Source: Actinobacteria bacterium 69-20 | GTDB taxonomy: Bacteria; Actinomycetota; Actinomycetes; Mycobacteriales; Nakamurellaceae | NCBI GenBank assembly: GCA_001897425.1 | Contig: MKSW01000022.1 | Location: forward strand, 191,174-249,409 | Length of the DNA: 58,236 nt | Reading direction: 5' to 3' | Part shown: positions 5,400 through 55,659 of the stretch, in pieces | How positions within the stretch are numbered: position 1 is the stretch's first letter | How the letters are laid out: each line of letters opens with the position of its first letter | The notes under the pieces: model-generated | Seen by the model: only the letters and a program-made list of their open reading frames with translations | What the model was told of the DNA's origin: nothing | The model's database searches: none | Position numbers and translations under genes: made by a program

Positions 5400-5415
5400 G
5401 CCGCGGCCGACCGGT

Positions 5416-6128: not shown

Positions 6129-6143
6129 ACAGTAGCATGTGTA
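6122..6143. promoter_or_regulatory. probable VapB autoregulatory operator
   Basis: Perfect 7-bp inverted repeat TACACAT / ATGTGTA with an 8-bp spacer at the 5' end of the vapBC transcript. The position and symmetry fit an autorepression site for a ribbon-helix-helix antitoxin. Inference from position only. Confidence 0.5.
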
Positions 6144-6189
6144 GGTTTAGCCGGCCCGGATCGGCGGCGTGCCTCTGCTGGCGCACGGG

Positions 6190-7071: not shown

Positions 7072-7156
7072 GTCGGTGACTCCCCTCCGGCACGCGTGGG
7101 TGGTTCATCCGCCCACCTTTCGCCACACCGCGCCGGGTGGTCAAGGGTCGCGACCG

Positions 7157-7507
7157 CTATCGCGTGGCCAAGACGATCGCGACGACAGCCACGATCACCA
7201 CGACCACGGCGAACAGCACCCACAGCCATGCGGTGCCGGAACTCGTTCGGGCGGCCGCAGGCCGCGACACGACGTCATGAGCGGTGTCGCCCCGGCCCCG
7301 CAACCGCGCGGCGTACTCGGCAGGGGTCCCCAGCTCCCGCTCGATGCGCGGGTAGCCGTCGTACGGGCTCGACGACAGCAGCGCGCGCCGAACGGTATTG
7401 AGCATGGCGTGCTGCCGTCCGCTCGGCTCGTGGCGCAGCTGATACTTCACCTGCGCGACATAGCTCTGCTCCGCCCGGGTCAGGTCGCGCGACTTGCTGC
7501 CTGCCAT
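7157..7507 (-). CDS. small HAAS-like domain membrane protein
   Basis: A 116-residue protein. The N-terminal helical region (SYVAQVKYQLRHEPSGRQHA, then ELGTPAEYAARLRG) matches the HAAS-like pattern of the neighbour at 6190-7071. A C-terminal membrane helix (TAWLWVLFAVVVVIVAVVAI) ends the protein, with only three residues beyond it. There is no catalytic motif. It may be a signalling or scaffolding partner of the neighbouring protein. No PadR regulator gene is visible nearby. Confidence 0.6.
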   Translation of the reverse strand: MAGSKSRDLTRAEQSYVAQVKYQLRHEPSGRQHAMLNTVRRALLSSSPYDGYPRIERELGTPAEYAARLRGRGDTAHDVVSRPAAARTSSGTAWLWVLFAVVVVIVAVVAIVLATR

Positions 7508-7669
7508 CGATCGCCTCCGACTCCGTGCGGGCGGCCGGCTGCGTGAAGGTGCCGCGCGGTGCCGGTCCGCCCGATGGCGCTTGGATCAGATCTGCCGCGA
7601 CGGATGGATCACACCGATGTGCGGAGATCGTGAGTAGATACTGCCGCGTCGTGCGACACAATCGCTAGC

Positions 7670-9421
7670 GTGAACCCCTCGACGGCGCAGGCGAGCGCAC
7701 TGGTGGACGAGCTCTGTGCGAACGGCGTGCGCGAGGTGGTGCTGTGCCCGGGATCCCGGAATGCCCCGCTGTCGATGGCCCTGCACACCGCGGACGCCGT
7801 CGGCCGCATCCGGCTGCACGTCCGCATCGACGAACGGGGGGCCGGATTCCTCGCGCTCGGCCTCGCGCGGGCCTCGGGGATCCCGGCCGCCGTTGTCACC
7901 ACCTCGGGCACAGCGGTGGCCAACCTGCATCCGGCGGTGCTGGAGGCCCATCACGGCGCCGTTCCGCTGGTGGTGCTCTCCGCGGACCGTCCGGCGCATC
8001 TGCGCGGCGTCGGCGCCAACCAGGTGATCGACCAGCTGACCCTCTTCGGCTGCGGTGTGCTGCGTTACCAACACGAGATCGCCGTTGCCACCGCTGGTTT
8101 CGAGCGGAACGGGTACTGGCGCGGGCAGGTGTGCCGCGCGGTGGCCGCGTCGCTCGGGGCGTTCGCGTCCGGTCGGCCCGGCCCGGCGCACCTCAACATC
8201 CCGTTCGACGTGCCGCTGCTGCCGGGCGGTGAAACTGCCGAGTATGACGCTGTTCTCGGCCGCACGGGTTCGGACCCCGCGAGGCTCGGGGGGCCTGCCG
8301 AGCCCGCCGGGCTCGGTGGTTACGGCGGCCTGCCGTGGACGCGAATTCCCGCGCCGGGCGATACCGGATCGCCAGTCGCTGGGCCGGGTGTGGGTGAGAA
8401 GTGCCTGTTCATCGGCGATCTCACGCATCCGCTGGCCGCCGCGGTGGCCGCAGCCGGATATCCGGTGGTCAGCGAGGCCGGTGGGCTCGGCGGCGCGGAC
8501 GTGCTCGCCGCCGGTGTGCACCTGCTGGCCGACGAGGACTTCCCCGGCGCTCACCTGCCGGATCGCGTCATCGTGCTCGGTCGGCCGACGCTCTTCCGGC
8601 CCGTCACCGCGCTGCTCGGGCGCGCGGACATCGTCATCGACGTGGTCGACAATCCCCGCGGCTACGCGGATCTCGCCGGATCGGTGCGTGCGGTCGCGCC
8701 CACGCTGGCGGATGTGCCCCCGGCCGCCGAGACCGCGCCCGCCGACTGGCTCGCATCGTGGCGGGGGGCCGACGCGGCGGCATCGTCAGCGATCGATGCC
8801 GCCCTGTCCGGTCGCGATGTCGCGAGCTCCGCGGTGCTCGCCCGGGCCGTGGCGGCAGGGTTGCCGGACGCGGCGGCGCTGTTCCTCGGCTCCTCGCAGA
8901 CCCCGCGCGATATCGGCCGATTCACCCGGCCCCGCAACGGCATTCGGGTGCTGGCGAACAGGGGAGTGGCAGGGATCGACGGGACCGTGTCCACCGCCAT
9001 CGGCAGCGCGCTCGCAGCTGGCCCCGATCGGGCCACGTACGCGCTGATGGGTGACCTGGCATTCCTGCACGACGTCAACGCGCTCGCGATCGGGCCGCAC
9101 GAGGCGCGGCCGAACCTCACCATCGTGGTCGCGAACAATGACGGCGGCGGCATCTTCGCGACCCTGGAGCAGGGCGCTCCGCGGTACGCCGCGTCCTTCG
9201 AGCGGGTGTTCGGCACGCCCACCGGCGCTGAGATCGCCAGCATCGTCGAGGGTTTCGGCGCGGAGCACCTGCTGGCGGTCACGGCCGACGAGCTCGCCGA
9301 GGCGCTCTCCGAGCCCCCGTCCGGCCTTCGCGTCGTCGAGGTCCCGGTCACCCGCACAGACCTCCGCGCACTCGCCGCCGAGATAGCAGCAGCCGTCGCC
9401 GCTGCGCTACGGGGCAGGTGA
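7670..9421 (+). CDS. menD: SEPHCHC synthase (menaquinone biosynthesis, ThDP-dependent)
   Basis: Joins isochorismate and 2-oxoglutarate to make SEPHCHC, the committed step of menaquinone synthesis. It has 583 residues with a GTG start at 7670. The N-terminal substrate/ThDP signature VVLCPGSRNAPLSMAL (residues ~22-37) and the C-terminal ThDP-Mg motif MGDLAFLHDVNAL ending in NNDGGGIFATLEQG are intact, so it should be active. It lies between menC and menF, with unrelated toxin-antitoxin genes interspersed, rather than in a tight operon. Confidence 0.93.
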   Translation: MNPSTAQASALVDELCANGVREVVLCPGSRNAPLSMALHTADAVGRIRLHVRIDERGAGFLALGLARASGIPAAVVTTSGTAVANLHPAVLEAHHGAVPLVVLSADRPAHLRGVGANQVIDQLTLFGCGVLRYQHEIAVATAGFERNGYWRGQVCRAVAASLGAFASGRPGPAHLNIPFDVPLLPGGETAEYDAVLGRTGSDPARLGGPAEPAGLGGYGGLPWTRIPAPGDTGSPVAGPGVGEKCLFIGDLTHPLAAAVAAAGYPVVSEAGGLGGADVLAAGVHLLADEDFPGAHLPDRVIVLGRPTLFRPVTALLGRADIVIDVVDNPRGYADLAGSVRAVAPTLADVPPAAETAPADWLASWRGADAAASSAIDAALSGRDVASSAVLARAVAAGLPDAAALFLGSSQTPRDIGRFTRPRNGIRVLANRGVAGIDGTVSTAIGSALAAGPDRATYALMGDLAFLHDVNALAIGPHEARPNLTIVVANNDGGGIFATLEQGAPRYAASFERVFGTPTGAEIASIVEGFGAEHLLAVTADELAEALSEPPSGLRVVEVPVTRTDLRALAAEIAAAVAAALRGR

Positions 9422-9433
9422 CCGGTCACTCGA

Positions 9434-9471
9434 CCGACGGATCTGACGGTTTTCCGACGGAATACTGACGG
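9434..9471. promoter_or_regulatory. direct repeats upstream of Xre/RES module
   Basis: Two near-identical units, CCGACGGATCTGACGG (9434-9449) and CCGACGGAATACTGACGG (9454-9471), lie 20 bp apart just upstream of the antitoxin ATG. The arrangement fits an operator for the Xre-type antitoxin (inference). Confidence 0.4.
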
Positions 9472-9492
9472 CGGCCGGCGTATGCTCAAGGC

Positions 9493-9831
9493 ATGACTAC
9501 CGCGTTCGCCGATGAGGCCGTTCGGATACATCGTGCGGCCGGGCTCTCTGACCGGGTGATCGGTGAGGCGGTGGGGGCGCGGCCGAGCACCGTGCGCGAT
9601 TGGCTGGGCGGCCGAACCTCACCGACCGGTATGCGGGCGAGGCGAGTCGCCGAGTTGGCCGAGATCACCGATCGGCTGGCACGGGTGATGGACACCCGAT
9701 ATATCCCGGTATGGATGGTCAAACCTGTCGAGGCGCTGGATGATCGTGCGCCCGTGGAGCTGATTGCCGCCGGCCAGGTGCGTGACGTGGCGCGGCTGAT
9801 CAGTTCCCTCGAGTCTCCCGGTGCCGCCTGA
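9493..9831 (+). CDS. Xre/MbcA/ParS-type antitoxin with toxin-binding domain
   Basis: A 112-residue protein. An N-terminal helix-turn-helix (LSDRVIGEAVGARPSTVRDW, residues ~19-38) is followed by the DUF2384-type toxin-binding region (VWMVKPVEALDDRAPVELIA, then RDVARLISSLES). It is the antitoxin of a RES-Xre type II system, of which MbcTA of M. tuberculosis is the studied example; it precedes its toxin by 3 bp. Confidence 0.82.
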   Translation: MTTAFADEAVRIHRAAGLSDRVIGEAVGARPSTVRDWLGGRTSPTGMRARRVAELAEITDRLARVMDTRYIPVWMVKPVEALDDRAPVELIAAGQVRDVARLISSLESPGAA

Positions 9832-36633: not shown

Positions 36634-36717
36634 GGCAGGTTACCCAAGTGGCCAAAGGGAGCTGACTGTAAATCAGCCGCGCAAGCTTCGGGAGTTCGAA
36701 TCTCTCACCTGCCACCA
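36634..36717 (+). tRNA. tRNA-Tyr (GTA)
   Basis: Acceptor stem GGCAGGT (36634-36640) pairs with ACCTGCC (36707-36713); anticodon stem CTGA/TCAG encloses loop CTGTAAA with anticodon GTA at 36668-36670. A long variable arm marks a class II tRNA, and TTCGAAT is the T loop. CCA is encoded. The 3' end lies next to the integrase gene, so the tRNA serves as the attachment site of the element to the right. Confidence 0.96.
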
Positions 36718-39905: not shown

Positions 39906-40397
39906 CTATCGCGAGATTCCGGTCGATCGATCACGGTGCGGCTTGCGCAGCCTGCCGTTGGCCGCGGCGGTGGCGAGGTCAGTCTCAGTTGTCTTCGTGC
40001 CCGTGCCCGTGGCGTGCATCAACGCGTCCAGCACGATCCTGCTGGTGGGTCGGTCGAGGCCGGCGAGTGCATCTGCGAGGTCCACTGGTTGTTCGCCGAG
40101 GAGTGAGCGGGTGATGGCGAGGACTCGTCTTTCGCCGCCGGAGAGTACGCCGATATGGTCGTCGGACAGCCTCGCGGCGTCGAGGTAGTGGTTGCCGGAT
40201 GCGGTGGTCTTGATCCAGGGCCAGCCGGGCCGCGCGAAGCGGCCGTCGAAGGCCTGTAGCAGCAGTTGAACGGCTGCTTCGGTGGGGTAGATCCCCTTCG
40301 CCCAGGCGCGTAGATCGGCGGGGACGGATCGCGTGGCGGAGTCGATGGCCATGGGGTTTCCTCCTTCGGGCGGTGCGACGGACGGGCTTGTCGTCAT
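39906..40397 (-). CDS. hypothetical protein coupled to relaxase
   Basis: A 163-residue soluble protein with no recognised domain. Its ATG at 40397 overlaps the relaxase stop codon by 4 bp (ATGA), so it is probably translated with the relaxase and may assist DNA processing; a second ATG at 40352 is an alternative start. Visible segments are GIYPTEAAVQLLLQAFDGRF, which reads like an ordered fold, and a basic, Thr-rich C-terminus. Confidence 0.65.
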   Translation of the reverse strand: MTTSPSVAPPEGGNPMAIDSATRSVPADLRAWAKGIYPTEAAVQLLLQAFDGRFARPGWPWIKTTASGNHYLDAARLSDDHIGVLSGGERRVLAITRSLLGEQPVDLADALAGLDRPTSRIVLDALMHATGTGTKTTETDLATAAANGRLRKPHRDRSTGISR

Positions 40398-43300
40398 CGG
40401 GACATCCCGGCCTGCTCACTGGGTCGGGCGGCGCGTGGCCCGTGGCGGTCGGGGCCATGGCTCGTCGCTGCACGGGCAGCCAGTCGGCTGTTCAGCGTGT
40501 GGGCGGCTTGTTCGGCGCCCTGATTGGTGAGTACCTGTTCGAGGACGTTTCGGGCGGGCCGTGTTTCGCGGTCGGCTCCGAGGGTGTCGAGTTCGCCGTG
40601 GCAGGTGTCGGTGTCGATGTAGGCGTGGTTGGAAAGGCGGCCGCGGGTCATGGCGACGTAGAACGCTTCGCGGGTCATGCGGCTGCTGGCGATGGTGTGG
40701 GTGGTGTCGACGGTGACGCCTTGGCAGCGGTGCGCGGTGACGGCGTAGCCGAGCTCGACGTGCTGCGGCACGTAGTCGGCGGGAAGGGCGACGGGCCGGC
40801 CGCCGCTTGCTTGGGCTTCGATCGCCCCGTCTCGGCGCACGTCGGTGATGGTGAGGATGGTGCCGTTCTTGATGAAGCCCGCGGCGAGTCGGCCGCGCTC
40901 GTCGACGCCTCCGCCCGGGTTGGTGCCGTCCGAGAGTCGTCGGTCGACTCGGCGGGTGATGATGCGGTCGCCGATACCGGCGACGGTGCCGTCGTGCAGC
41001 GCCACACCCTCGGCGTGAACGTGGCCGGCTTCGATGAGGTCGGCCCGCACGGTGAGGTTGAGGGCTTGGACGGTGTCGTTGTCGGCCGCGATCAGAAGAC
41101 TGGTCAGGCCTCGCGTGTGGTCTGCCTTCCAGGCTTGGTGTGCGGCGTGGATCATCGCGTCCGCGTCACCGTCCGTAAACCGGCCGTGCGCCTGGTAGGC
41201 GTTTAGCGCTGTCGGGTCGCCGCGGCGGAGCCCCAGGGACGCGTCGGCCTCCCATCGGCGAAGCTGCCCGTCGAGGTTCGTGAAGCGGCGGATATCGGTG
41301 AGCTGCGGCGTATCGGCGTGATGTTCGGCCAGGAGCTGGAAGGTGCCGCCGGCGCCGATCGCGGGCAGTTGCGCGTGGTCACCGACGAGCAACAGCTTCG
41401 CCCCTGCCGTGCGGGCTTGTGCGGCGAGGGCGTTCATAGTGGACAGGTCTGCCATGCCGGCCTCGTCGACCACCAAGAGCTGGCCGGGGTGCAGTGCCCA
41501 CCGGTCGTAGCGGGAGCGTGCTTGCGCGATCGCTTGGTCGATGCCTGTCACCGGTTTTCCGGCCGCGGTCGCGTCGGCGCGGCGGGCTTCGAGACTGGCG
41601 ACGCGCTGGGCTCGACCGGGTTGGAATTGTTGCTGGGCGAGCCACTGCGCGGTGTTCTCGGCTGCGATGTCGATCTCGGTGCCGAGCACCTCGGCCGCGA
41701 CTGCGGAGGTGGCCAGGCCAAGCACCGAGCCGGGGCCGTGCTCGGCTTCCCAAGCGGCCCGCAGCCCGGCCATGGTGGTGGTCTTGCCGGTACCAGCCGG
41801 GCCGACCAGCACGTCACAGACCCGGCCCGATTCGCAGATCGCCCGTACCGCTGATGCTTGGTCCGGTGCGAGCCGGTGGTCGCGGCCGGGCAGGGGAGCA
41901 GCGGCAACATCATCGATGACGTCGGCGGAAACGGTTGGCGCGGTGACGGTATCGGTGGCCTGGAGTAGGGCGTCCTCGGCGGCCAGGACTTCCAGGGACG
42001 TGAACACTTCGGGCGCGTCATAGATCGATCGGCCCGTCGTGACGTCGATCTCCGCGACGGCCGCGGGAGTACTGGCCGGGTTGAGCAGGACGCTGCGTTC
42101 GATTGCGGCGGCCGTGACCCGGCGACGCACCTCGAACAGGTCGGATTCGGTGGCGAATTGCAGGCCCGCTGCGCCAATGGCCCGGCAGGTAGCGGCAACC
42201 ACATTCCACCGCGACCAGGTGGCGCGCTTGGCCTCGACCTGATCCAACGCGGCCGCGGCGAGGATCTCGATCGTCTGTTCGTCGACCGCGCCGGCCGTCA
42301 CCAACCTGGCGCTGCCTCGGATCGTGTCCGGGCTCAGGGTGATGTGCGTGCCTGTTGTCGCTGTCGGGATGGTGGTGATGGCGCGCGCCCAGGCACGTGC
42401 GTCACTGCCGAGGATGAGGTCGGCACGGCGGGTCCATTGGTCGGTGTATTCGGCCACGGTGGAGACGTGTTTCGGCTGCCGTGTTTCCAGGGTGGCCTGT
42501 TGGCGGATGCGTACGGCTTCGGGTCCGGTCGGCTGTCGGCCGTGATCTGCGACGAACTTCTCGATGGCGGCGTCTTTGGCGGCGGTGATGGCGGCGGTGC
42601 GCTGCGAGAACTCCGCGATCAGGTGGTCCGGTATCGCGGCCAACTCCCGGCGCGGGTTGCGGGCCCGGCCGCGCAGCCGCACCTCCCAGCCGACGCCAAG
42701 TGCGCGGGTGAGATTGTCGGCGAGCAGCAGGTCGTAGGTGTCCGAGTGCGCGACCGACGCCGCGTACAAGGAGCGGGAATCCAACGTTCGCCAATGCCCA
42801 TCGGATGCTGCCTGGACACGGTTGGCGATCGTCACATGCGTGTGCAACTGCGGATCGCCGGCGCGGGAGTCGTGGTGATCGAACCCGGCCGCGATCAGGC
42901 CGCGCACCGGCACCCGGGCGGAGCCGCCATGCCCGGTGCGGGTGCGGGCCACGTCACGCTCGATCAGCCGGATCGTCGACGCAATCGCCTGGTGATGCGC
43001 GGCCACAATGGCGCGCTGCACGTCTGCGTCGGAAAGCGCCCACAGCACCGACACGGACTTCGGCACCGAAAACGTCAAATCGAATCCCGCGACCGCGCCT
43101 CGCGTGTCGCGGGCCTTCTCGGCCGCTGCGGTCGCCGTAACCCTGGCTTCGCGCACTGCGGGCGCCAGGCCTGCGGGCAGCTGCGCGACCTTCGTTGCGA
43201 TCCGATCCGCCGGTTGAGCCGTGGCATGGTATTCGCGGCCTAGCGGCGTACCGGTCACCGGGTCGTGGCCGGCGCCGAACATCCGCGCCATCTGATCCTC

Positions 43301-43498
43301 CGACACGACGCTCCCCACGGCCAGACCCGCCCCGTCATTCACCCCGGCCAGACCCGCGCCCAGCCACACCCCGGCCGGATAGCCGGCGTTCACGTAATAC
43401 CGGGTCATCGCCGTCGACCGATCCGGCGCATCCCCACGCGACGTGTGCCGCATCAGGTACTCGAAACCCGACCCGGCCGACATGCGCGACAGAGACAT
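40394..43498 (-). CDS. traA: MobF-family conjugative relaxase with helicase domain (TrwC/TraA-like)
   Basis: A 1034-residue protein that nicks and unwinds DNA for conjugative transfer. The relaxase domain at the N-terminus has FEYLMRHTSRG, a Tyr pair in MTRYYVNAGYPAGVWLG, FSVPKSVSVLWAL and the three-His metal site GDPQLHTHVTIANR (about residues 214-227). The C-terminal RecD-like helicase has Walker A GPAGTGKTTT (~566) and Walker B LLVVDEAGMAD. The start ATG at 43498 follows two GTG codons; the longer upstream frame crosses the divergent gene and is not used. A 10-bp palindrome lies just upstream. Confidence 0.93.
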   Translation of the reverse strand: MSLSRMSAGSGFEYLMRHTSRGDAPDRSTAMTRYYVNAGYPAGVWLGAGLAGVNDGAGLAVGSVVSEDQMARMFGAGHDPVTGTPLGREYHATAQPADRIATKVAQLPAGLAPAVREARVTATAAAEKARDTRGAVAGFDLTFSVPKSVSVLWALSDADVQRAIVAAHHQAIASTIRLIERDVARTRTGHGGSARVPVRGLIAAGFDHHDSRAGDPQLHTHVTIANRVQAASDGHWRTLDSRSLYAASVAHSDTYDLLLADNLTRALGVGWEVRLRGRARNPRRELAAIPDHLIAEFSQRTAAITAAKDAAIEKFVADHGRQPTGPEAVRIRQQATLETRQPKHVSTVAEYTDQWTRRADLILGSDARAWARAITTIPTATTGTHITLSPDTIRGSARLVTAGAVDEQTIEILAAAALDQVEAKRATWSRWNVVAATCRAIGAAGLQFATESDLFEVRRRVTAAAIERSVLLNPASTPAAVAEIDVTTGRSIYDAPEVFTSLEVLAAEDALLQATDTVTAPTVSADVIDDVAAAPLPGRDHRLAPDQASAVRAICESGRVCDVLVGPAGTGKTTTMAGLRAAWEAEHGPGSVLGLATSAVAAEVLGTEIDIAAENTAQWLAQQQFQPGRAQRVASLEARRADATAAGKPVTGIDQAIAQARSRYDRWALHPGQLLVVDEAGMADLSTMNALAAQARTAGAKLLLVGDHAQLPAIGAGGTFQLLAEHHADTPQLTDIRRFTNLDGQLRRWEADASLGLRRGDPTALNAYQAHGRFTDGDADAMIHAAHQAWKADHTRGLTSLLIAADNDTVQALNLTVRADLIEAGHVHAEGVALHDGTVAGIGDRIITRRVDRRLSDGTNPGGGVDERGRLAAGFIKNGTILTITDVRRDGAIEAQASGGRPVALPADYVPQHVELGYAVTAHRCQGVTVDTTHTIASSRMTREAFYVAMTRGRLSNHAYIDTDTCHGELDTLGADRETRPARNVLEQVLTNQGAEQAAHTLNSRLAARAATSHGPDRHGPRAARPSEQAGMSR

Positions 43499-43514
43499 CA
43501 CCACACCCCAATAA

Positions 43515-43573
43515 GGTGCGCACCCCGCGCGGTAGCGAAGAGAAGTTGTCGATATTGCAGATGCAAGTATCAT
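43515..43573. promoter_or_regulatory. divergent control region between relaxase and HTH/PIN module
   Basis: The 81-bp gap has a perfect palindrome GGTGCGCACC (43515-43524) next to the relaxase start, and TTGCA-GA-TGCAA (43555-43566) within a rightward promoter candidate TTGTCG (43546) - 16 bp - TATCAT (43568-43573). With transcription starting about 7 bp after TATCAT, the mRNA for the gene at 43580 would be leaderless. Confidence 0.4.
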
Positions 43574-43579
43574 GGGGTC

Positions 43580-43960
43580 ATGGTTACTAGAGCTACGGCG
43601 ACTACGCTTGACGCCGCGGATCCGGCTGTCCGGTCGGATGCGCGATCTCTCGCGGCCCGGCTCAATGGGGACAATCCCGTCGAGGTTGCGGTGCGCTCGA
43701 TGCTCGACGATGTTGCCGATGGCGCGCGCGTTGTCGTGCTGCGTACGGACGATGAGGTCACGCCCGGTCAGGCTGCCGAGATTCTTGGTGTCACTCGGCA
43801 GTTTGTCGATCGTCTCTGCGAGGACGGTGTGCTCGCCTTTCGTCGCCTGCCCGGCAGCCGTCATCGCCGCATCCGAGTGAAGGACGTCACGGATGTTGCC
43901 GCTGAACGGGAGAGGCGCCGGGCCGGCGGCGCCGCGATCCGCGCTGTGATCGGTCAGTGA
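43580..43960 (+). CDS. helix-turn-helix (MerR/excisionase-type) antitoxin
   Basis: A 126-residue protein. The central-to-C-terminal DNA-binding domain reads EVTPGQAAEILGVTRQFVDR then LCEDGVLAFRRLPGSRHRRI, a MerR/excisionase-like winged HTH. The following PIN-domain gene begins 3 bp after its stop, so the pair looks like an antitoxin and toxin. An excisionase role for the element is an alternative, given the fold, but it is remote from the integrase. Confidence 0.75.
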   Translation: MVTRATATTLDAADPAVRSDARSLAARLNGDNPVEVAVRSMLDDVADGARVVVLRTDDEVTPGQAAEILGVTRQFVDRLCEDGVLAFRRLPGSRHRRIRVKDVTDVAAERERRRAGGAAIRAVIGQ

Positions 43961-43963
43961 CCG

Positions 43964-44536
43964 TTGGCTCAGCTGCGGCGGGTGTTCATTGACACCAACG
44001 AGCTGTTCCCGTTCACGATCATGGACCTGCTCCTGACGTTCGCGGAAGACTTTCTGTTCACCTGGGTGTGGACTGACGAGATCTTGGATGAATGGGAAGA
44101 AGTCATCATCCGAGAGGGGAAACGGACCCCGGAATCGGCCGCGTCAGTCATTAATGCGGTGCGAACGTACTTCGGCGACGACCGCATCGACCCAGCCACC
44201 TATCGCCATGCGATTACCGACGATCTATCGCCCGACCCTGACGACCGCGTGCATGCTGCGGCTGCCATCCACGGCAACGCCGACGTGGTGCTCACCCGGA
44301 ATCTCAAGCATCTGCGCACGGAACCGGTGATGGCCGCCGGGATCGAGGTGATCACCTCCGACGAGTTCCTGTGCGCATTGCTGGACGATCATCCTGGGGC
44401 CGTGATCGAGTCATTTATGCGCGCAGCCGCCGGTAGGCAGAGCCCGCCGACGACACCGACGCAGCTTGCACAGCACATCGCAGCCGCCGGGGCCCCAGAA
44501 TTCGCCGAAAGGCTCCAGGCCTTGCTCGCCCGCTGA
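43964..44536 (+). CDS. PIN-domain toxin-like protein
   Basis: 190 residues from TTG 43964 (GTG 43982 is possible). The PIN core shows VFIDTNELFPF near the N-terminus with the first Asp, WTDEILDEWEEV with the second acidic pair, DPDDRVHAAAAIHGNADVVL with the third and ITSDEF. Expected to be an RNase held in check by the HTH protein encoded immediately upstream. A C-terminal ~50-residue helical extension is beyond the PIN core. An addiction role would stabilise the element. Confidence 0.78.
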   Translation: MAQLRRVFIDTNELFPFTIMDLLLTFAEDFLFTWVWTDEILDEWEEVIIREGKRTPESAASVINAVRTYFGDDRIDPATYRHAITDDLSPDPDDRVHAAAAIHGNADVVLTRNLKHLRTEPVMAAGIEVITSDEFLCALLDDHPGAVIESFMRAAAGRQSPPTTPTQLAQHIAAAGAPEFAERLQALLAR

Positions 44537-45655: not shown

Positions 45656-46093
45656 GTGGGTGCAGTTTCGTGGGCTAGCAGCCCTCACTCCGCGACGGTC
45701 ATGCGCGGTAATCGGTCGCGGGACACGAAGCCCGAGCTCGCCGTCCGAAAGCTTCTGCATGCTCAAGGATTGCGTTACCGCGTCCACTACCGGCCTTTAT
45801 CATCCCTCCGGCGGACCGCAGATATCGTGTTTACCGCTAGCCGCATCGCCGTATTTATCGATGGTTGTTACTGGCATGGATGCCCTGAGCATTACGTTGC
45901 CTCCAAGTCGAATCGTGAATACTGGGACACCAAGATCGCAACGAATTCGGCACGAGATGCAGAGACCACTGCGGTGCTATCGGACGCTGGCTGGACCGTA
46001 CTGCGCTACTGGAGTCATGATCGCCCCGAGGAAATCGCCAGCTCGATTCGAGAACTGGCGCTCCGCGCCCCGCACGGTGGACAAGTGCGCTAG
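45656..46093 (+). CDS. vsr: Vsr-family very short patch repair endonuclease
   Basis: A 145-residue strand-specific endonuclease that normally cuts beside T:G mismatches arising from deaminated 5-methylcytosine. The family pattern is clear: MRGNRSRDTKPELAVRKLL, RRTADIVFTASRIAVFIDG (catalytic Asp56), CYWHGCPEHY (zinc ligands) and GWTVLRYW near the end. The usual final E-C/E-H is S-H here. GTG start. It converges on and overlaps the methyltransferase gene by 4 bp (46090-46093), the classic Vsr-Dcm partner. Base composition is lower in G+C than the flanks, indicating separate acquisition. Confidence 0.9.
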   Translation: MGAVSWASSPHSATVMRGNRSRDTKPELAVRKLLHAQGLRYRVHYRPLSSLRRTADIVFTASRIAVFIDGCYWHGCPEHYVASKSNREYWDTKIATNSARDAETTAVLSDAGWTVLRYWSHDRPEEIASSIRELALRAPHGGQVR

Positions 46094-47484
46094 CCGACCT
46101 GCGCCGCCGACCGATCAGCCCCCGCAAACGTAGAAGCCCTCGACTTCCTCGTTCTCGTCGCGGGAAGTTCTTCCGACAAGGTGTCGACCACTGTTTGCGC
46201 CGTGGTCCTCGATAGCGCGAGTAGAGACACTTCGCCAAGAGGTATCGCTACGCGCAGCGCTGCAGGCGAGTGCCCAAGTGACCCGAGCAGAGCGAGAGCT
46301 GCGGCTCGGGCCAACGGAGGTGGAACGCTATTTCCGACCTGACGATGACCATGCCAGTTCGTCGTGTGAAACCGGAACCAGTCAGGGTACCCGTGGAGGC
46401 GAGCCGCTTCGCGGACGGTGATAACGCGATCCTCGCACGGATGAATCGGCCGCGGGGATGTATGCGAGCCACGTTCGGACCCCGTGCCGGCCCGCAACGT
46501 CCGGGACGGACCGTCGAGCGGGAGCCGATACAGACGGCTCTTCGGCTCCACAGTGCCGAGCGCGGTCGCGGCGAAGCGTTCCACTGTTTCCTTCGTATGA
46601 GTGGTGCGGCGGGAGCCTGTCAAGTAGGACGGCTCCGACAGGCGCGGCCGGGACTTGTCACCGGGAAGTGCATCGACGCCTGCCAACGTGCGTGCATATG
46701 CGCTCTTGATCGATAAGCGGCGTTCGATGTCCTCATCCCGCAGCTCGACCTCATCCGCGCTCAGCAGTGCCTCATATCCTGACGGGGAGGGAAGACCCTC
46801 GAGCGCCTCCTTAACTGAGATTTTTCTTTCGATCTGAACCGGCCGAGTCGGGGCAACCTTGCCCAGTGCACCAAGCACGATGACCCGTCGCCGTGACTGA
46901 GGTACGCCGAAGTTGAGGCTGTTGACCGCCTCATCGGTCCCGGAAAGTGCATAGCCCGCGCGCCTGAGCTTCGTGAAGGCTTCTTCGCGGATGTCATCGA
47001 ATTTCTCTTCTAGCAGGCCAGCGACGTTCTCCAGGCAGAGCGTCTGCGGCTTGAGTTCTTCGACTAAGCGGACGAAGTGCAGAATTAGGTCGTTGCGCTC
47101 GTCGTTCTGCTCACGCTTGCCGCCTGCGGAGAACCCTTGACATGGCGGGCCGCCGATCAGAGCGTCGAGTCGTCCGGGCCACGGAGTTCCTGGATGAAGC
47201 CGCTTGAACCCGCGTTTGGCGACCGCGAGCACGTCGGTCGCTGACAACTTTGAGGCGTCACGGCATAGCACCTCACAGTTAGGAAAGTTGAACGCGTGAG
47301 TTGCCGCATGCACTGGGTCATACTCGACAGCCGCAACGACGTCGTAGCCGGCTTGCTCGAATCCAAGGCTCATGCCTCCTGCCCCGGCGAAGAGGTCGAC
47401 CGCTACTGGCCTGCTCAGGCGCGCGCTAGCGGAGGAGACTGTCACCCTATGACGATCGCACATCTCGCCCCCGGACGCACGCAC
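46090..47484 (-). CDS. dcm: C5-cytosine DNA methyltransferase
   Basis: Methylates cytosine at carbon 5 in a specific DNA site using SAM. Up to 464 residues; Met8 (47463) is an alternative start. Motif I DLFAGAGGMSLGF (30-42), motif IV GGPPCQGFS with the catalytic Cys115, motif VI LENVAG (151-156), motif VIII PQSRRR (195-200) and motif X QVGNSVPP are all intact, so it should be active. The target-recognition region lies between ~230 and ~370. It is divergent from the GHKL ATPase gene by 52 bp and convergent with vsr. No standard restriction endonuclease gene is visible. Confidence 0.93.
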   Translation of the reverse strand: MRASGGEMCDRHRVTVSSASARLSRPVAVDLFAGAGGMSLGFEQAGYDVVAAVEYDPVHAATHAFNFPNCEVLCRDASKLSATDVLAVAKRGFKRLHPGTPWPGRLDALIGGPPCQGFSAGGKREQNDERNDLILHFVRLVEELKPQTLCLENVAGLLEEKFDDIREEAFTKLRRAGYALSGTDEAVNSLNFGVPQSRRRVIVLGALGKVAPTRPVQIERKISVKEALEGLPSPSGYEALLSADEVELRDEDIERRLSIKSAYARTLAGVDALPGDKSRPRLSEPSYLTGSRRTTHTKETVERFAATALGTVEPKSRLYRLPLDGPSRTLRAGTGSERGSHTSPRPIHPCEDRVITVREAARLHGYPDWFRFHTTNWHGHRQVGNSVPPPLARAAALALLGSLGHSPAALRVAIPLGEVSLLALSRTTAQTVVDTLSEELPATRTRKSRASTFAGADRSAAQVG

Positions 47485-47536
47485 CGACGCGGGCAGGTTC
47501 TACCTCAGCCGGGCACAGATCGGGCATCATGAGCAC

Positions 47537-48952
47537 ATGGTGACATCCATCCCCGACACGACGGTCAATGCGGGCGCCGAGAAGCGCTTCTTCATCGAAA
47601 TGTTGACCAAGGACATCGAGCTGCTGCCAGCGATCGTCGATCTAGTGGACAACAGCGTGGACGGGGCGCGGGGGCTTCACCCCGACGGAGACCTCGACGG
47701 GCAGTGGGTGAAGATCAAAGTCAAAGACGACTCGTTCACAATTTCGGATAATTCGGGAGGCATCTCGGTCGATATCGCGCGTCACTACGCGTTCCGCTTC
47801 GGCCGCTCCAAGGACTTCACCGGGGTCAAACGTTCGGTGGGCCAGTTCGGCGTCGGAATGAAACGAGCGATCTTCAAGATCGGCCAGGCGTTCACCGTGA
47901 AGTCTGCTCATCGTGGCGAGACGGGCGGCAGCGATAGCTCGCGTTTCGATATGAGCGTCGATGTCGAGGAGTGGGCGGTTCAGGAGGCGTGGACCTTCGA
48001 ATTCGGCAACGTCCAGGAGGGCATCACCCTCGCGGCCGGCGAGGAGACCGGCACCACGATCACGATTACGAAGCTCCACCCCAGCGTGCAGGACGACTTG
48101 AACGACCCGTCAGTGGCTCAGCTCCTGCGAACCGAGTTGCGCGTTCGACATCAGGAGTCGATTCAAAGCGGCCTGAAGCTCTATCTGAACAGCGAGACAC
48201 CGCTGGTTGCATCTCGTCCCTCGCTTCAGGCCTCCGCTGTCGTGCGACCCGTCTACAAGCAATTCCAAGTCGAGGCATTGGGTGGCACCGTTGACGTCAA
48301 GCTCTACGCCGGAACGGTTGCCCCACCCAAGCGCGACAAGGACACCGATCCCGAAGACGACGGACGGGCCGAAAACTTCCAAGATCCAGGCGATGCCGGC
48401 TGGTATCTCTTCTGCAACGACCGATTGCTTCTCGTGGCCGACCGGACACCCATCACCGGCTGGGGCAATCCCGCAGCGGCCTACCACCCTCAGTACCGTC
48501 TCTTCCGCGGGTTCGTGTATCTCTCCGCAGACGACGCGAGTCTCCTGCCCTGGAATACCACCAAGACGGCCGTGGACCGAGATTCGCCTGTCTTCCGCGC
48601 AGTGCAGTCCGAGATGAAGACGACGCTCGTTGCCGTACAAGCGGTCATAAACCGCGCCAAGCAAGTGCGCGCTCGCCTCGACGAAGAAGAGACGAAACCC
48701 GAGATCCTTGTGGCGCTGGACGAAACCCCGGACCAGCCGATCAGCTCGCTGACAACGGTGTCGTCCCAGATGCTCGCGCCTGCCTCGCCTCCGCCCAAAC
48801 CACACACGCCGGCGACGCCCAAGATTCAGCGAATCCAATATACGGTCGAGCGCGACCGGTACAAAGAAGTCGCGGAAGCGCTTGGGGCATCGAGCGGCTC
48901 GGAAGTAGGTCGCCTGACTTTCGACTACTTCTACGACCAAGAGATCGACTGA
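47537..48952 (+). CDS. GHKL ATPase of MutL/MORC/HSP90 type (HATPase_c_3)
   Basis: 471 residues. The N-terminal ATPase has N-box IVDLVDNSVDGA (Asp35, Asn39), motif II ISDNSGGI (Asp71) and motif III VGQFGVGMKRA (102-112). The catalytic Glu of most GHKL proteins is Asp35. A second S5-like domain follows, with GWYLFCNDRLLLVADRTPITG and SLLPWNTTKTAVDRDS, typical of bacterial MORC-like ATPases that Iyer and colleagues described in restriction-modification loci. The C-terminus has a Pro-rich linker and a helical end. It likely clamps DNA on ATP binding and acts with the downstream protein; its stop shares a base with that start. Confidence 0.85.
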   Translation: MVTSIPDTTVNAGAEKRFFIEMLTKDIELLPAIVDLVDNSVDGARGLHPDGDLDGQWVKIKVKDDSFTISDNSGGISVDIARHYAFRFGRSKDFTGVKRSVGQFGVGMKRAIFKIGQAFTVKSAHRGETGGSDSSRFDMSVDVEEWAVQEAWTFEFGNVQEGITLAAGEETGTTITITKLHPSVQDDLNDPSVAQLLRTELRVRHQESIQSGLKLYLNSETPLVASRPSLQASAVVRPVYKQFQVEALGGTVDVKLYAGTVAPPKRDKDTDPEDDGRAENFQDPGDAGWYLFCNDRLLLVADRTPITGWGNPAAAYHPQYRLFRGFVYLSADDASLLPWNTTKTAVDRDSPVFRAVQSEMKTTLVAVQAVINRAKQVRARLDEEETKPEILVALDETPDQPISSLTTVSSQMLAPASPPPKPHTPATPKIQRIQYTVERDRYKEVAEALGASSGSEVGRLTFDYFYDQEID

Positions 48953-49848
48953 TGGCCAGACAGTACGAGTTCCGGCCAGCCAAGGCCGCCCAACGACGGA
49001 TGATCGTCGACGCGTGCAGACGGCTAACAGCGATCGCATCGCCCGATCAATATCAGTACGTCGGATTCGGAGGGCTGGAGTTCATCGACTTCGTCGAATT
49101 CCACCGTGGTCTCGGCATCCCCCAGATGACGAGCATCGAACACGACACAAACATGCAACACCGACTCGACTTCAACAAGCCATACAACAGCATCCGGCTC
49201 CTCATCGGCGAAGCCCGGGATCAGCTTCCCCAAATCGATTGGGCGAAACTGGCGATCACCTGGCTCGATTACACCGACGTTCTCACCACCGACATCCTCC
49301 GCGACGTCGACTACGTCGTCCGGTCGAGTCAACCGGGCAGCGTCGTGCTCGTGACCGTCAACGGTGCCGCAACCGACGTTCCGATCCCCGAGCGGCTCCC
49401 GAACCTTCGGAGCAAGCTCGGCGACCTTGTCACCGACGGGCTCGAACAAACGGACATGGCCGGTTGGGGTCCCACACGGGTCGAACGAGGCATCCTCCAG
49501 GCAACCGCCCACGCGGCCGGTCGGCAGGCGCACGGTCTGCCATTCCGCCAACTCTTCAACTTCGAGTATGCGGACGACGCAAAGATGCTCACTTGGGGAG
49601 GAATCGTTACCAGCCCGGCTCTCGACCGCACGATCGACACCTGCCGATTCGACGACCTGACCTTCGTCCGCACCAGGGACGACGCCTTCGAGATCAATGT
49701 TCCAGTGCTAACCGAACGCGAGATCGCCTACCTGGAAACCGAGCTTGTCGGAGCGTCAGCCACCGCGCTGCCCAAGATCAAAGGCGTTTGCTCGAAAGAC
49801 ATCCGGGCATTCGCACAGGTCTACCGATGGAGGGTCGGTGTCCGCTAG
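48952..49848 (+). CDS. Rossmann-fold protein (putative SAM-dependent methyltransferase-like) of defence island
   Basis: 298 residues, starting on the last base of the ATPase stop codon, so strictly coupled. A Rossmann-type core is suggested by YQYVGFGGLEFIDF (34-47) in place of the SAM Gly loop, MTSIEHDTNM (59-68) as the acidic end of strand 2, LAITWLDYTD (100-109) as the motif IV region, and SVVLVTVNG. The C-terminal half is unrecognised, with many conserved-looking Trp/Arg positions. It could be a methyltransferase, a SAM-binding sensor or a degenerate enzyme; I see no nuclease motif. Function unknown; context says it works with the GHKL ATPase. Confidence 0.7.
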   Translation: MARQYEFRPAKAAQRRMIVDACRRLTAIASPDQYQYVGFGGLEFIDFVEFHRGLGIPQMTSIEHDTNMQHRLDFNKPYNSIRLLIGEARDQLPQIDWAKLAITWLDYTDVLTTDILRDVDYVVRSSQPGSVVLVTVNGAATDVPIPERLPNLRSKLGDLVTDGLEQTDMAGWGPTRVERGILQATAHAAGRQAHGLPFRQLFNFEYADDAKMLTWGGIVTSPALDRTIDTCRFDDLTFVRTRDDAFEINVPVLTEREIAYLETELVGASATALPKIKGVCSKDIRAFAQVYRWRVGVR

Positions 49849-50001: not shown

Positions 50002-50071
50002 GGGACTGCTGCACGGATAGGTGACATCTGATGTGTGGAGGCTCGGTGCCTCTGCTGGAAGGATGTCGACC

Positions 50072-50359
50072 ATGCCGAAAGCGTTTCCCAAGGAGTTCCG
50101 CGAGGACGTGATCCGGGTAGCCCGCCAGGCGGAGGCCCCGGTGTCGCAGGTTGCGAAGGACTTCGGTATCTCCGAGTCCTGTCTGCACCGATGGCTGCAA
50201 CAGGCCGATATCGAGGACGGTAAACGTCCAGGCGTGACCGCGTCCGAATCCTCGGAGCTGCGTGACGCGAAGAAGCGGATCCGACTGTTGGAGCAGGAAA
50301 ACGAGGTGCTGCGCCGCGCGGCCGCCTATCTGTCCCAGGCCAATCTGCCGGGAAAATGA
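50072..50359 (+). CDS. IS3-family transposase OrfA (HTH and leucine zipper)
   Basis: 95 residues from ATG 50072 after GGAAGGA; ATG 50063 is possible. An N-terminal helix-turn-helix (VSQVAKDFGISESCLHRWLQ) and a C-terminal leucine zipper (LRDAKKRIRLLEQENEVLRR) are present. The last codons contain the heptamer GGGAAAA (50350-50356) in the G-GGA-AAA phase, a canonical -1 frameshift signal just before TGA, so an OrfAB fusion transposase is likely produced. Confidence 0.92.
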   Translation: MPKAFPKEFREDVIRVARQAEAPVSQVAKDFGISESCLHRWLQQADIEDGKRPGVTASESSELRDAKKRIRLLEQENEVLRRAAAYLSQANLPGK

Positions 50360-51258
50360 TGTACCCGCTCGTCCGTGAGCTGGCCGCCGGCGGGATCCCC
50401 GTCGCGGTGACGTGCCGGGTCTTGAAACTTGCCCGTCAGCCCTACTATCGCTGGTTGAAACAGCCTGTGACCCAAGCGGAATGGGATGAGGCGCACCGGG
50501 CGAACGCCCTGTTCGATGCCCACCGGGACGACCCGGAGTTCGGGCACCGACTGCTCGCCGACGAAGCACGCGATGCCGGCCAGTCGATGGCTGATCGGAC
50601 TGCGTGGCGGATCTGTCGGGATAACCGTTGGTGGTCCACATTCGGTAAGAAACGGGGCCGCAACGGTAAGCGCCCCGGGCCGGCGGTGCACGACGACCTG
50701 TGTGCCGTCGTCGACGGCAACGGCCGGGTTCGGCACCAGTTCACCGCCGAAAGCCCGAATGAACTGTGGCTCACGGACATCACGGAGCATCGCACCGGCG
50801 AGGGCAAGCTCTACCTGTGCGCGGTCAAAGACGCCTACTCGGGCAGGATCGTGGGCTACTCCATCGACTCCCGCATGAAATCCCGCCTGGCCGTCGCCGC
50901 GCTCACCAGCGCCGCAGCCCGCCGCGGTGACGTCGCCGGCTGCGTGGTGCACAGCGACAGAGGCAGTCAATTCCGTTCGCGAAAATACTTGCGGGCATTG
51001 CGATCTCACGGCCTCGTCGGTTCCATGGGGCGGGTCGGCGCCGCCGGGGACAACGCCGCCATGGAATCATTCTTCGCGCTGCTGCAGAAAAACGTGCTCA
51101 ACCGGCGCACCTGGCAGACACGAGACCAGCTTCGCATCGCGATCGTTGCCTGGATCGAACGCACCTACCACCGCCGCAGACGCCAAGCCCGACTCGGCCG
51201 CTTGACCCCCATCGAATACGAGACAATCATGACCACACCGGCCACCCAGGCCGCATGA
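50356..51258 (+). CDS. IS3-family transposase OrfB (DDE integrase core)
   Basis: 300 residues, overlapping orfA by 4 bp in the -1 frame. The rve-type catalytic core is intact: Asp141 (LTDITEH), Asp201 (VVHSDRGSQF) and Glu237 (NAAMESFFALLQ), spaced DD35E, with the usual Lys/Arg after the Glu in KNVLNRR. An upstream HTH_21-like region (FDAHRDDPEFGHRLLADEAR) is present. Should be active as the OrfAB fusion; separate OrfB can start at its own ATG. Confidence 0.93.
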   Translation: MMYPLVRELAAGGIPVAVTCRVLKLARQPYYRWLKQPVTQAEWDEAHRANALFDAHRDDPEFGHRLLADEARDAGQSMADRTAWRICRDNRWWSTFGKKRGRNGKRPGPAVHDDLCAVVDGNGRVRHQFTAESPNELWLTDITEHRTGEGKLYLCAVKDAYSGRIVGYSIDSRMKSRLAVAALTSAAARRGDVAGCVVHSDRGSQFRSRKYLRALRSHGLVGSMGRVGAAGDNAAMESFFALLQKNVLNRRTWQTRDQLRIAIVAWIERTYHRRRRQARLGRLTPIEYETIMTTPATQAA

Positions 51259-53344: not shown

Positions 53345-53431
53345 CCCGCCAGTTAACTACCGCGCGCGGCGCGCACCTATTTAGGGCGGCGGCGCTCGCA
53401 TGTGCGCATCGCCTGGAATAGGAGGCTTCCC

Positions 53432-53755
53432 ATGTTGTATCTCGACCGGGCCTGGGCCCGGGTGGGTGCGTTTCTGATGGATGATCCGCTGTCGGGCGGG
53501 GACACGGTGACGATCCCGGGGCTGGCACGGTTTAAGGGGATCGTGTCGGCGATGGTGCCGTTCGCCCTGGTGGCTTGCGTGCTGGCGGTGATCATCGGCG
53601 CGATCATCTGGGCGATGGGCGGGTTCACGAACAATCCGCATCGAGCGGCGTCGGGCAAAACCACTGTCTTGTGGTCGCTGGTTGCCGCGATCGTGATCGG
53701 CGCCTCTGGGTTCGTGGTGGGCTGGGCCCACGACCAGGGCACCACGATCTCCTGA
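53432..53755 (+). CDS. DUF6112-like small membrane protein of type IV secretion system
   Basis: A 107-residue protein from ATG 53432 after TAGGAGG. Two membrane helices (VSAMVPFALVACVLAVIIGA and TVLWSLVAAIVIGASGFVVG) with a short loop resemble the VirB2/TrbC-like small subunits of actinobacterial conjugation systems. First of a run of membrane and exported proteins that continues to the right edge. Confidence 0.7.
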   Translation: MLYLDRAWARVGAFLMDDPLSGGDTVTIPGLARFKGIVSAMVPFALVACVLAVIIGAIIWAMGGFTNNPHRAASGKTTVLWSLVAAIVIGASGFVVGWAHDQGTTIS

Positions 53756-53761
53756 GCCGAG

Positions 53762-54556
53762 GTGGCCGTCATGCGCATCATTCCGTTTCCACGCCGGCAC
53801 CGTGCGTTATGGATCGCTGCCGCCGTGCTGGGTGTTTCCGCGTGGGGCACCTGGCTGGCGTCGTCGGGCCGCACGTTCGACTATGGCAGCGGTGCGACAT
53901 CCCTCGCACCCGCCGCGACACCGACACCGGGGGCGTCAACGCCGGACGTGGCGGTTGTTGCGAGCATGCCGTCGACAGGTATGACGGACCTCGCGGCCGA
54001 ACCGTATCCGCACACCTCGGCGCCCGGGCTGGTGGTCATCGCCGACCGGCCGACAGCTGGCGTCGGCGACGACGAAGGCTCGGTAGTGGTGGCCGCGCCT
54101 CGATCGGATCTGGCGGGTGTGACGGATCCGCTCGCATTTGCTGGCGCCGTCGCGGACGTCGTGCTGTCGTTTGGGCCGGAGGAGGACCCCGCCCGGGCTG
54201 ATGTCGTGCTGGCGGTGGCGGCACTGCCGCCGATCGGGGCCCCACAGGAACTGGCGGCTGACCTGGACCGTCTCGCCCCGGCGCCGGCGTTGGTTTCGTC
54301 TGGCGCGACTGTGGAGTTCGCGCCGGACTTGGTCGCCCCGTCTGCGTGGGCTGCGCCTCGAATGGACCAGCTGCGCCTGCCACTCGGCTCGTTTGCGATC
54401 GACGTGACCGGAACCCAGATCGTCACCGTCCCCGGCCACGACCCGGTGTCGATCTCGGTGACGATCGGCGTCACCGGAGCCTGCCCGCCCGCCCTGCCCC
54501 AGTGCGAGATCGACCGGATCTTCCCGCGCACCGTCGCCCAGGAGCTCGGCTCATGA
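53762..54556 (+). CDS. membrane-anchored exported protein of transfer operon
   Basis: 264 residues. An N-terminal signal-anchor (RALWIAAAVLGVSAWGTWLA, after RRH) is followed by an Ala/Val/Asp-rich extracytoplasmic region with no recognised domain; paired Cys (ACPPALPQCEIDRI) lie near the end. It starts 6 bp after the previous gene and overlaps the next by ATGA, so it is probably a structural part of the cell-envelope channel. Confidence 0.6.
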   Translation: MAVMRIIPFPRRHRALWIAAAVLGVSAWGTWLASSGRTFDYGSGATSLAPAATPTPGASTPDVAVVASMPSTGMTDLAAEPYPHTSAPGLVVIADRPTAGVGDDEGSVVVAAPRSDLAGVTDPLAFAGAVADVVLSFGPEEDPARADVVLAVAALPPIGAPQELAADLDRLAPAPALVSSGATVEFAPDLVAPSAWAAPRMDQLRLPLGSFAIDVTGTQIVTVPGHDPVSISVTIGVTGACPPALPQCEIDRIFPRTVAQELGS

Positions 54557-55659
54557 CCCCGGCCGCCCGCAGACTCATGGTCGCCGCGGCCGCGACCCCG
54601 TCGATCGCGGCTGTCGCGGTGGTGGCCTTGATCCTCACCGCGTTCGCGGCCTTTGCCGCAGGCGGGGGCACGGGCGACGATCCGGCGATCCACGCCGCCG
54701 CGTGCAACTCGGTCGGCAGCCCCGCTTCAGGTCTATCTGCCGAACAGACCATGAATGCCGCAACGATCGCCTCCGTCGCGGCGGCGCGCGGCCTGGGCAC
54801 TGCGGGCGCGGTGATCGGGGTGATGACGGCCATGACGGAGTCGTCACTTCTGAATATCGACCACGGTGACGAGGCCGGGCCGGATTCGCGGGGCCTGTTC
54901 CAGCAGCGCGACTCCTGGGGGCCAGCATCGGTGAGGATGGATCCGGCCGGAGCGGCCGATCTCTTCTTCGACCGACTCGAGACGATCGACGGATGGCAGG
55001 ACCTGGCCCCGTGGGCGGCCGCGCAGCAGGTGCAGCACTCCGCGTTCGCCGACGGCTCGAACTACGCCGCCCACTACCAGGACGCGCTGACCATCGTCGC
55101 CGGCCTGCAAGGCATCGATCCCGAGGTGACGGGCGCGCAGCCGGCGTCCGCTGTCGCCGATGTGCCCGGCTTCGACGTGGTGGCCTTCTGCGCCATGGGC
55201 AGCACGGGAGTCGCCGCTGGCGGTGGGGTGATGGCGGGTGCGTGGGGCGGGTTCTCGAACGGACAGATCCCGGCGACCGCGCTGTGCCCGCTCACCGCCG
55301 CCGGGCAGCTCCTGCGCTGCGACGCGGCCGCAGCGTGGAACGGTATGTCGACGGCGTATCGGGCCTCGTCGGGCTCACCGCTGTGCATCACCGACTCGTA
55401 CCGCACCCTGGCCGCCCAGATTGCTCTGCACGCCGAGAAGCCCACGTTGGCGGCGGCGCCGGGAACGTCGAATCACGGCTGGGCGCTTGCGGTGGATTTG
55501 TGCGAACCCGGCCGGGGCGGCATGGGTTTTACGACCGCGACCTACCTGTGGTTGAAGGCGAATGCCGGCGGGTTCGGTTTCACGCACCCGGCGTGGGCCG
55601 AACCGGGCCGAGGTCAGGAAGAGCCGTGGCATTGGGAATACACGCGGGGCGCGTCATGA
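54553..55659 (+). CDS. two-domain peptidoglycan hydrolase: lysozyme-like plus M15 D-Ala-D-Ala peptidase
   Basis: 368 residues from ATG 54553. A signal-anchor (AAVAVVALILTAFAAFA) is followed by a transglycosylase-like domain with likely catalytic Glu96 (MTAMTESSLLN), DSRGLFQQRDSWG and AAQQVQHSAF. The C-terminal domain is VanY/M15-like: Ser282-Tyr-Arg (ITDSYRTLAAQ), His308 and Asp315 (SNHGWALAVDLC), His360 (EPWHWEY). It would open the cell wall for the conjugation channel. The start overlaps the preceding stop and the stop overlaps the next start. Confidence 0.82.
   Translation: MTPAARRLMVAAAATPSIAAVAVVALILTAFAAFAAGGGTGDDPAIHAAACNSVGSPASGLSAEQTMNAATIASVAAARGLGTAGAVIGVMTAMTESSLLNIDHGDEAGPDSRGLFQQRDSWGPASVRMDPAGAADLFFDRLETIDGWQDLAPWAAAQQVQHSAFADGSNYAAHYQDALTIVAGLQGIDPEVTGAQPASAVADVPGFDVVAFCAMGSTGVAAGGGVMAGAWGGFSNGQIPATALCPLTAAGQLLRCDAAAAWNGMSTAYRASSGSPLCITDSYRTLAAQIALHAEKPTLAAAPGTSNHGWALAVDLCEPGRGGMGFTTATYLWLKANAGGFGFTHPAWAEPGRGQEEPWHWEYTRGAS

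Follow-up and report, generated by a model that had tools for sequence, protein, structure and literature searches.

A GHKL ATPase and a PF20553 protein as candidate restriction arm of a restriction-modification-like cassette on a mobile element

Introduction

Genes for a Vsr endonuclease, a C5-cytosine DNA methyltransferase, a GHKL ATPase and a protein of family PF20553 lie side by side in an actinobacterial stretch of 58,236 nucleotides (the whole of which is called the window here), and their arrangement raises the question of what would act on unmodified DNA where a modification enzyme stands beside two proteins of no established role. Enzymes of the Dcm family methylate DNA cytosines, Vsr proteins repair the T:G mismatches that arise by deamination of 5-methylcytosine, and the ATPases of MutL, MORC proteins and topoisomerases form ATP-closed dimeric clamps on DNA. 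The comparisons presented below point, with a confidence somewhat above even, to a restriction-modification-like defence cassette carried on a mobile element, in which the ATPase and the PF20553 protein (hereafter the pair, and the latter the partner) would form the restriction arm.

Results

The four genes and their surroundings

Table 1. Coordinates of the cassette genes and neighbouring features in the window
Feature	Coordinates	Strand	Basis
tRNA-Tyr gene, possible integration site	36634-36717		
TrwC relaxase gene	40394-43864	-	
HTH_17 protein then PIN_3 protein, toxin-antitoxin-like, between relaxase and Vsr	43265-44536		
Vsr very-short-patch repair endonuclease, optional accessory	45656..46093	+	PF03852, TIGR00632
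C5-cytosine DNA methyltransferase (Dcm type), putative modification arm	46090..47484	-	PF00145, TIGR00675, PADLOC MTase_II
Gap of 52 bp, flanked by dcm and ATPase genes in divergent orientation	47485..47536	.	sequence
GHKL ATPase, core gene 1, 471 aa	47537..48952	+	PF13589
PF20553 'putative O-methyltransferase', core gene 2, 298 aa	48952..49848	+	PF20553
Two-gene transposase (HTH_Tnp_1, rve domains), immediately 3' of partner	50021-51258		
DUF6112 / weak T4SS pilin-like protein, and protein with VanY-type D-alanyl-D-alanine carboxypeptidase domain	53402-55659		

Open reading frames and curated family matches agree on four adjacent genes (Table 1), with scores above the cut-offs for Vsr (PF03852, 71 bits against 27, 6e-20; TIGR00632, 121.6 against 97.85), the methyltransferase (PF00145, 193 bits against 22, 1.2e-56; TIGR00675, 164.7 against 100.65; PADLOC MTase_II, 1e-117), the ATPase (PF13589, 48.7 bits against 25) and its partner (PF20553, 269.9 bits against 27), so that the protein described in an earlier note on this DNA as a Rossmann-fold partner can be assigned to an existing Pfam family. 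The layout given in that note is likewise present in the sequence: vsr and dcm overlap by 4 bp (46090-46093), dcm and the ATPase gene diverge across the gap, and the ATPase and partner genes share a single base at 48952 (TGATG), the partner start lying inside the ATPase stop codon. Both promoters may be located within the 52-bp gap, where an alignment with three relatives displays a conserved stretch immediately 5' of the ATPase start, and where a promoter and terminator scan returned no sigma-70-like match.

The Vsr and the methyltransferase were recognised by PADLOC, none of whose models matched either member of the pair, and both members are covered by PHROGs families of unknown function (phrog_20521, 6.7e-64; phrog_19983, 2.6e-28). 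Neither exceeds the cut-off of any nuclease family in Pfam, NCBIfam or PADLOC, in agreement with the earlier statement that no conventional restriction endonuclease is present, and Vsr represents the sole nuclease family within the four-gene cluster. The lower G+C content claimed for the cluster was also found, as it forms the minimum of the window (61-62% in the two bins of 2 kb that span 46-50 kb, 64.5-73% in the remaining bins); regarding the proposed conjugative element, the TrwC relaxase gene was confirmed, but the match to a type IV secretion pilin fell under its cut-off.

Conservation of the ATPase–PF20553 pair

Loci were gathered with the partner profile from genome contigs (8) and viral contigs (4), with the ATPase profile from viral contigs (13), and from plasmid records (2), phage records (1) and whole genomes, few of which contain the family (2 of 396 and 3 of 397). 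Excluding duplicates of the window (L002, L013, L034, L043), of L037 (L014, L044), L017 (L023), L015 (L024), L016 (L026) and L039 (L036), two loci treated as duplicates of L008 on account of the same contig size and ORFs (L035, L038), and three without PF20553 (L027, L029, L030), the set comprises 24 distinct PF20553 loci (the window, L005-L012, L015-L022, L025, L028, L031-L033, L037, L039), or strictly 23 independent ones since the partners of L016 and L017 are 96% identical. The pair of the inovirus PfAC20, used as a DNA query, found no match in 20,395 E. coli records from 5,426 genomes, a DNA search being insensitive at such divergence.

The ATPase gene is located directly upstream of PF20553 in 23 of these 24 loci. 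In the remaining one (L033, on psymA of S. meliloti, 4662-9807), about 3 kb of inserted DNA separates the ATPase from a partner without its N-terminus, and this copy therefore looks interrupted; two ORFs cover the ATPase in L012, where the partner extends past the contig end. Because relatives with 27-83% identity keep the same tandem order at separate loci, the linkage of the pair goes beyond chance. Among 396 actinobacterial genomes, the PF20553 and ATPase profiles (E up to 1e-20) each match the same two only (G000, G111), and when the 120 top-ranked listed clusters of each protein search (of 1852 and 131 hits) were compared by the length of their longest contig, 54 lengths coincided, against 0.65 expected and a maximum of 5 in 2000 trials. 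The distances of the two proteins are correlated at 0.96 (18 loci, Mantel p 0.0001), and those of the pair proteins with Dcm at 0.79 and 0.85 (18 loci); these are 18 of the 22 aligned loci, after dropping L016 and L017 (near-duplicates with L015) and L011 and L032 (without Dcm), with the broken L012 and the cut-off L033 outside the alignment. Tandem order, co-occurrence and parallel divergence support the view that the GHKL ATPase and the PF20553 protein would operate as one functional unit.

In the viral ATPase search the partner adjoins the ATPase in 10 of 13 loci, and three more distant relatives (L027, L029, L030; 25-28% identity) have no PF20553, yet a C5 methyltransferase within about 1.5 kb, indicating that some members of the wider ATPase family have no such partner. 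The 581-aa GHKL ATPase that adjoins a C5 methyltransferase in two of them, without PF20553 (L027, 6023-7768; L029, 7986-9731), is a possible single-protein variant. A fused ATPase-partner protein was considered for the 685-aa relative P0035 and rejected, its N-terminal extension alone being read as a wrong start.

Linkage to methyltransferases and Vsr

A C5 methyltransferase is found close to the pair in 21 of the 24 distinct loci, in variable order: divergent upstream (the window, L005-L010, L015-L017 and, at 0.7 kb, L039), upstream on the same strand (L018, L019, L021, L022, L037), downstream (L020, L025, L031), convergent (L028) or 2.8 kb off (L033). The background amounts to 28 match segments in about 98 Mb from 21 related genomes, or about 0.3% per 10-kb neighbourhood, although it was drawn from bacterial genomes only, whereas viruses or phages account for 11 of the 24 loci. 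The linkage across genomes expected from the earlier proposal is thus upheld, with DrmMI in one further locus. The methyltransferase is more variable than the pair, with 32% (L020) and 29% (L025) identity to that of the window, against 32-40% for the pair proteins, and in two loci DISARM or Pbe genes stand in its place, for which reason the core is reduced from four genes to the ATPase–PF20553 pair.

Vsr was detected in at least 10 of the 24 loci, a lower bound because one query was used at E 1e-3 and some contigs end nearby. It had been proposed either as nuclease or as repair factor, and the second role is favoured: being a regular TIGR00632 member found in 10 of the loci, it is most likely an optional repair accessory for deaminated 5-methylcytosine, and as an effector nuclease it was rejected as the main reading, this normal TIGR00632 Vsr going undetected in 14 of 24.

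Two loci without Dcm sit in other modification-linked defence operons, each of these associations being represented by one locus. On a Microvirga plasmid (L032) the pair lies within a run of drmD, MmeI-type, ATPase, PF20553, drmA, drmB-like and drmC genes, with PADLOC matches to DrmMI, DrmA and DrmB, and in a Chloroflexi MAG (L012) it follows PbeA-like (4e-206) and PbeC-like (5e-114) genes and a 135-aa ORF without match, no C5 methyltransferase being detected in that genome, which is of unstated completeness. In a third locus (L011) no methyltransferase gene was found on the contig, and four occur in the genome.

Conserved residues and the possibility of a second methyltransferase

Conservation was assessed in alignments of 94 ATPase relatives (A4) and 98 partner relatives (A3), both hand-picked subsets of the hits. 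The N, G1 and G2 boxes of the ATPase and K343 are invariant, with N39, D71, G75, G105, G107 and K343 unchanged in 94 of 94; the N-box acid is Asp35 in all 94 and Glu in the aligned MORC2. The lysine of the WNTTKT motif, which we take to be the S5-type transducer lysine, is equally invariant. From these residues we infer an active, possibly slow, ATPase in the window. As a sequence it has no match in the PDB, and its profile gives weak matches to MORC2, gyrase and topoisomerase, the best being MORC2 (E 0.05).

The partner retains G38, G40, D106 and D118 in 98 of 98 relatives, E63 in 97 of 98, and R8, K11 and R15 in all 89 that reach the N-terminus. No relative was found in the PDB with either its sequence or its profile; compared with a profile of 11 O-methyltransferases (from 16 translated loci, five of 340-692 aa being dropped) its profile gave E 2e-4 with a probability of 44%, against E 0.1 for Dcm and 0.36 for the ATPase. 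This comparison aligns E63, the GEARDQLP stretch, D106 and the PGSVVLVTV strand. Such a match, together with the conserved SAM-site positions, makes a SAM-type Rossmann fold likely for the partner; the O-methyltransferase label does not amount to an assignment of function.

The partner could nevertheless be an ordinary methyltransferase, in which case the pair might belong to the modification arm, PF20553 acting as a second methyltransferase on DNA, RNA or protein, with the ATPase clamp loading PF20553 or Dcm and no restriction taking place. The profile alignment and the retained SAM-site positions agree with this possibility, but the metal-binding Asp of the O-methyltransferase class falls on T135 of the partner, a position taken by Thr or Ser in all 98 relatives; the pair also accompanies DISARM and Pbe genes, where interference genes are in place already, and it is present in a genome (G778) where no C5 methyltransferase was detected. 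A role of this type is accordingly considered unlikely, and a restriction arm remains the favoured role of the pair.

Mobile elements and neighbouring defence genes

The mobile and defence-gene surroundings anticipated for the pair were found in an inovirus, in phage contigs, next to relaxase genes, within the DISARM run and behind Pbe-like genes. The Pf inovirus PfAC20 carries the ATPase, PF20553 and a C5 methyltransferase, the last of which a passage of PMC11878078 counts among incomplete defence systems; a P2-type GPD tail gene adjoins the cassette in L022, integrase genes are present on the contigs of L019 and L021, and a TrwC relaxase gene adjoins the cassette in L005. ResIII / Ppl-like genes (L037, 1132-6476) and an AbiLi-like AAA protein (L016, 1192-2370) were also observed near the cassette.

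Carriage by an inovirus, by phage contigs and by loci adjoining TrwC relaxase genes would also suit an anti-restriction cargo, in which the DNA of the phage or conjugative element is methylated against host restriction and the pair aids methylation or DNA protection. Since mobile elements carry defence genes as well, location cannot decide between both possibilities; the pair is, however, found inside DISARM and Pbe operons, and there seems little probability in an anti-restriction role compared with a restriction arm.

Comparison with known systems

The window cluster has the DNA methyltransferase gene of a Type II restriction-modification system (PF00145 and TIGR00675 over cut-off) without a recognisable cognate restriction endonuclease alongside. 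Its ATPase combines a GHKL domain (PF13589, invariant boxes) with an S5-type lysine (in WNTTKT), as do those of MORC and paraMORC operons. Operons of restriction-modification type that encode MORC or paraMORC ATPases alongside methylases and Vsr have been on record since 2008 (PMC2292703), in line with the earlier remark that bacterial MORC-like GHKL ATPases occur in such loci; according to the relevant passages they are sporadic and mobile, share with the window a GHKL+S5 ATPase, a cytosine methylase and Vsr, and in some cases have no helicase. In those passages the partners are helicase, RE-fold, HNH and TIR proteins, with PF20553 unmentioned. Anti-phage activity is described in PMC12137116 for a Shedu protein with a GHKL domain, whose type had previously been annotated as paraMORC3, and the terms GHKL, MORC and HATPase are absent from the passages on DISARM-type helicases in PMC12458937.

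The NCBIfam MzaB model gives the window ATPase 24.1 bits against a cut-off of 850, so membership of MZA was rejected; its likeness to MzaB is confined to the GHKL part, and no other Mza gene was recognised among the neighbour genes scanned. Nevertheless, weak matches to MzaB among the 94 relatives (49 with PADLOC; 70 with the NCBIfam model, E up to 0.01) indicate a remote relationship of the ATPase to a known defence protein. Membership of the BbrUII/HgiDII family of restriction enzymes was rejected as well (NCBIfam model, 17.7 bits in the GHKL part, cut-off 550; one of 94 relatives matching), that model being 659 long against the 471 aa of the window ATPase, which has a separate partner protein; M.BbrUII and M.HgiDII are 5mC methyltransferases, as stated in a passage of PMC5867850.

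DISARM and DndCDEA-PbeABCD resemble the window cassette in joining a DNA modification to a multi-gene interference arm. PbeABCD (PbeB of 66 aa, PbeD of 152 aa) is reported in PMC6459918 to inhibit the replication of viruses without cleavage, in a phosphorothioate-dependent manner. The window cluster was rejected as DISARM, as drm genes were not found in it and its methyltransferase, which matches DrmMII and DruM, fits the generic MTase_II better; nor did PADLOC give a Pbe match for any of the four genes. No description of the ATPase–PF20553 pair was found in the published literature searched, mostly outside subscription papers, and no named system with the same gene set among PADLOC models or in that literature, as the earlier note had supposed.

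The same neighbourhood logic, a GHKL gene with a partner, a C5 methyltransferase and Vsr, is found in the HEF_HK / Response_reg_2 pairs, where the GHKL gene is often HATPase_c_3 and Vsr is frequent, as reported in 2021 in passages of PMC8011034, and the window pair might by analogy be a signalling device in which a kinase-like GHKL protein works with a regulator of Rossmann fold. Membership was rejected because neither protein matches PF19191 or PF19192 (E up to 0.1) and the partner belongs to PF20553; moreover, the invariant WNTTKT lysine is more in keeping with a clamp ATPase than with a histidine kinase, and signalling appears scarcely probable beside a restriction arm.

Discussion

That the pair is unrelated cargo merely sharing mobile elements with dcm and vsr is very improbable indeed, for although the HTH/PIN pair and transposase genes adjoin it as in other gene-dense cargo and L011 has the pair with no methyltransferase found on its contig, a C5 methyltransferase lies near it in 21 of 24 loci despite changing order, and Dcm co-diverges with it (0.79-0.85).

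In the restriction-modification-like cassette favoured here, Dcm would methylate cytosines of resident DNA as a self mark, with Vsr, where present, limiting mutation at methylated sites. The GHKL ATPase may close on DNA as an ATP-dependent dimeric clamp, by analogy with MutL, MORC and topoisomerase, and with its SAM-fold partner would act against DNA without the cognate modification, in replacement of a restriction endonuclease; the target might be cleaved, prevented from replicating, as is reported for PbeABCD, or chemically marked. A more far-reaching and rather unlikely proposal is that the pair is a portable, nuclease-free interference arm serving 5-methylcytosine, DISARM-methyltransferase and phosphorothioate systems, which would clamp DNA and then apply SAM chemistry or block replication, with no cutting.

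Where no endonuclease is recognisable, C5 methyltransferases are commonly labelled orphan or incomplete, and the ATPase–PF20553 pair provides a specific candidate for the missing half of such systems. That the pair occurs both within a DISARM run and after Pbe genes points to a single effector module common to systems with differing DNA marks, in which case two genes would suffice to test how bacterial MORC-like ATPases work.
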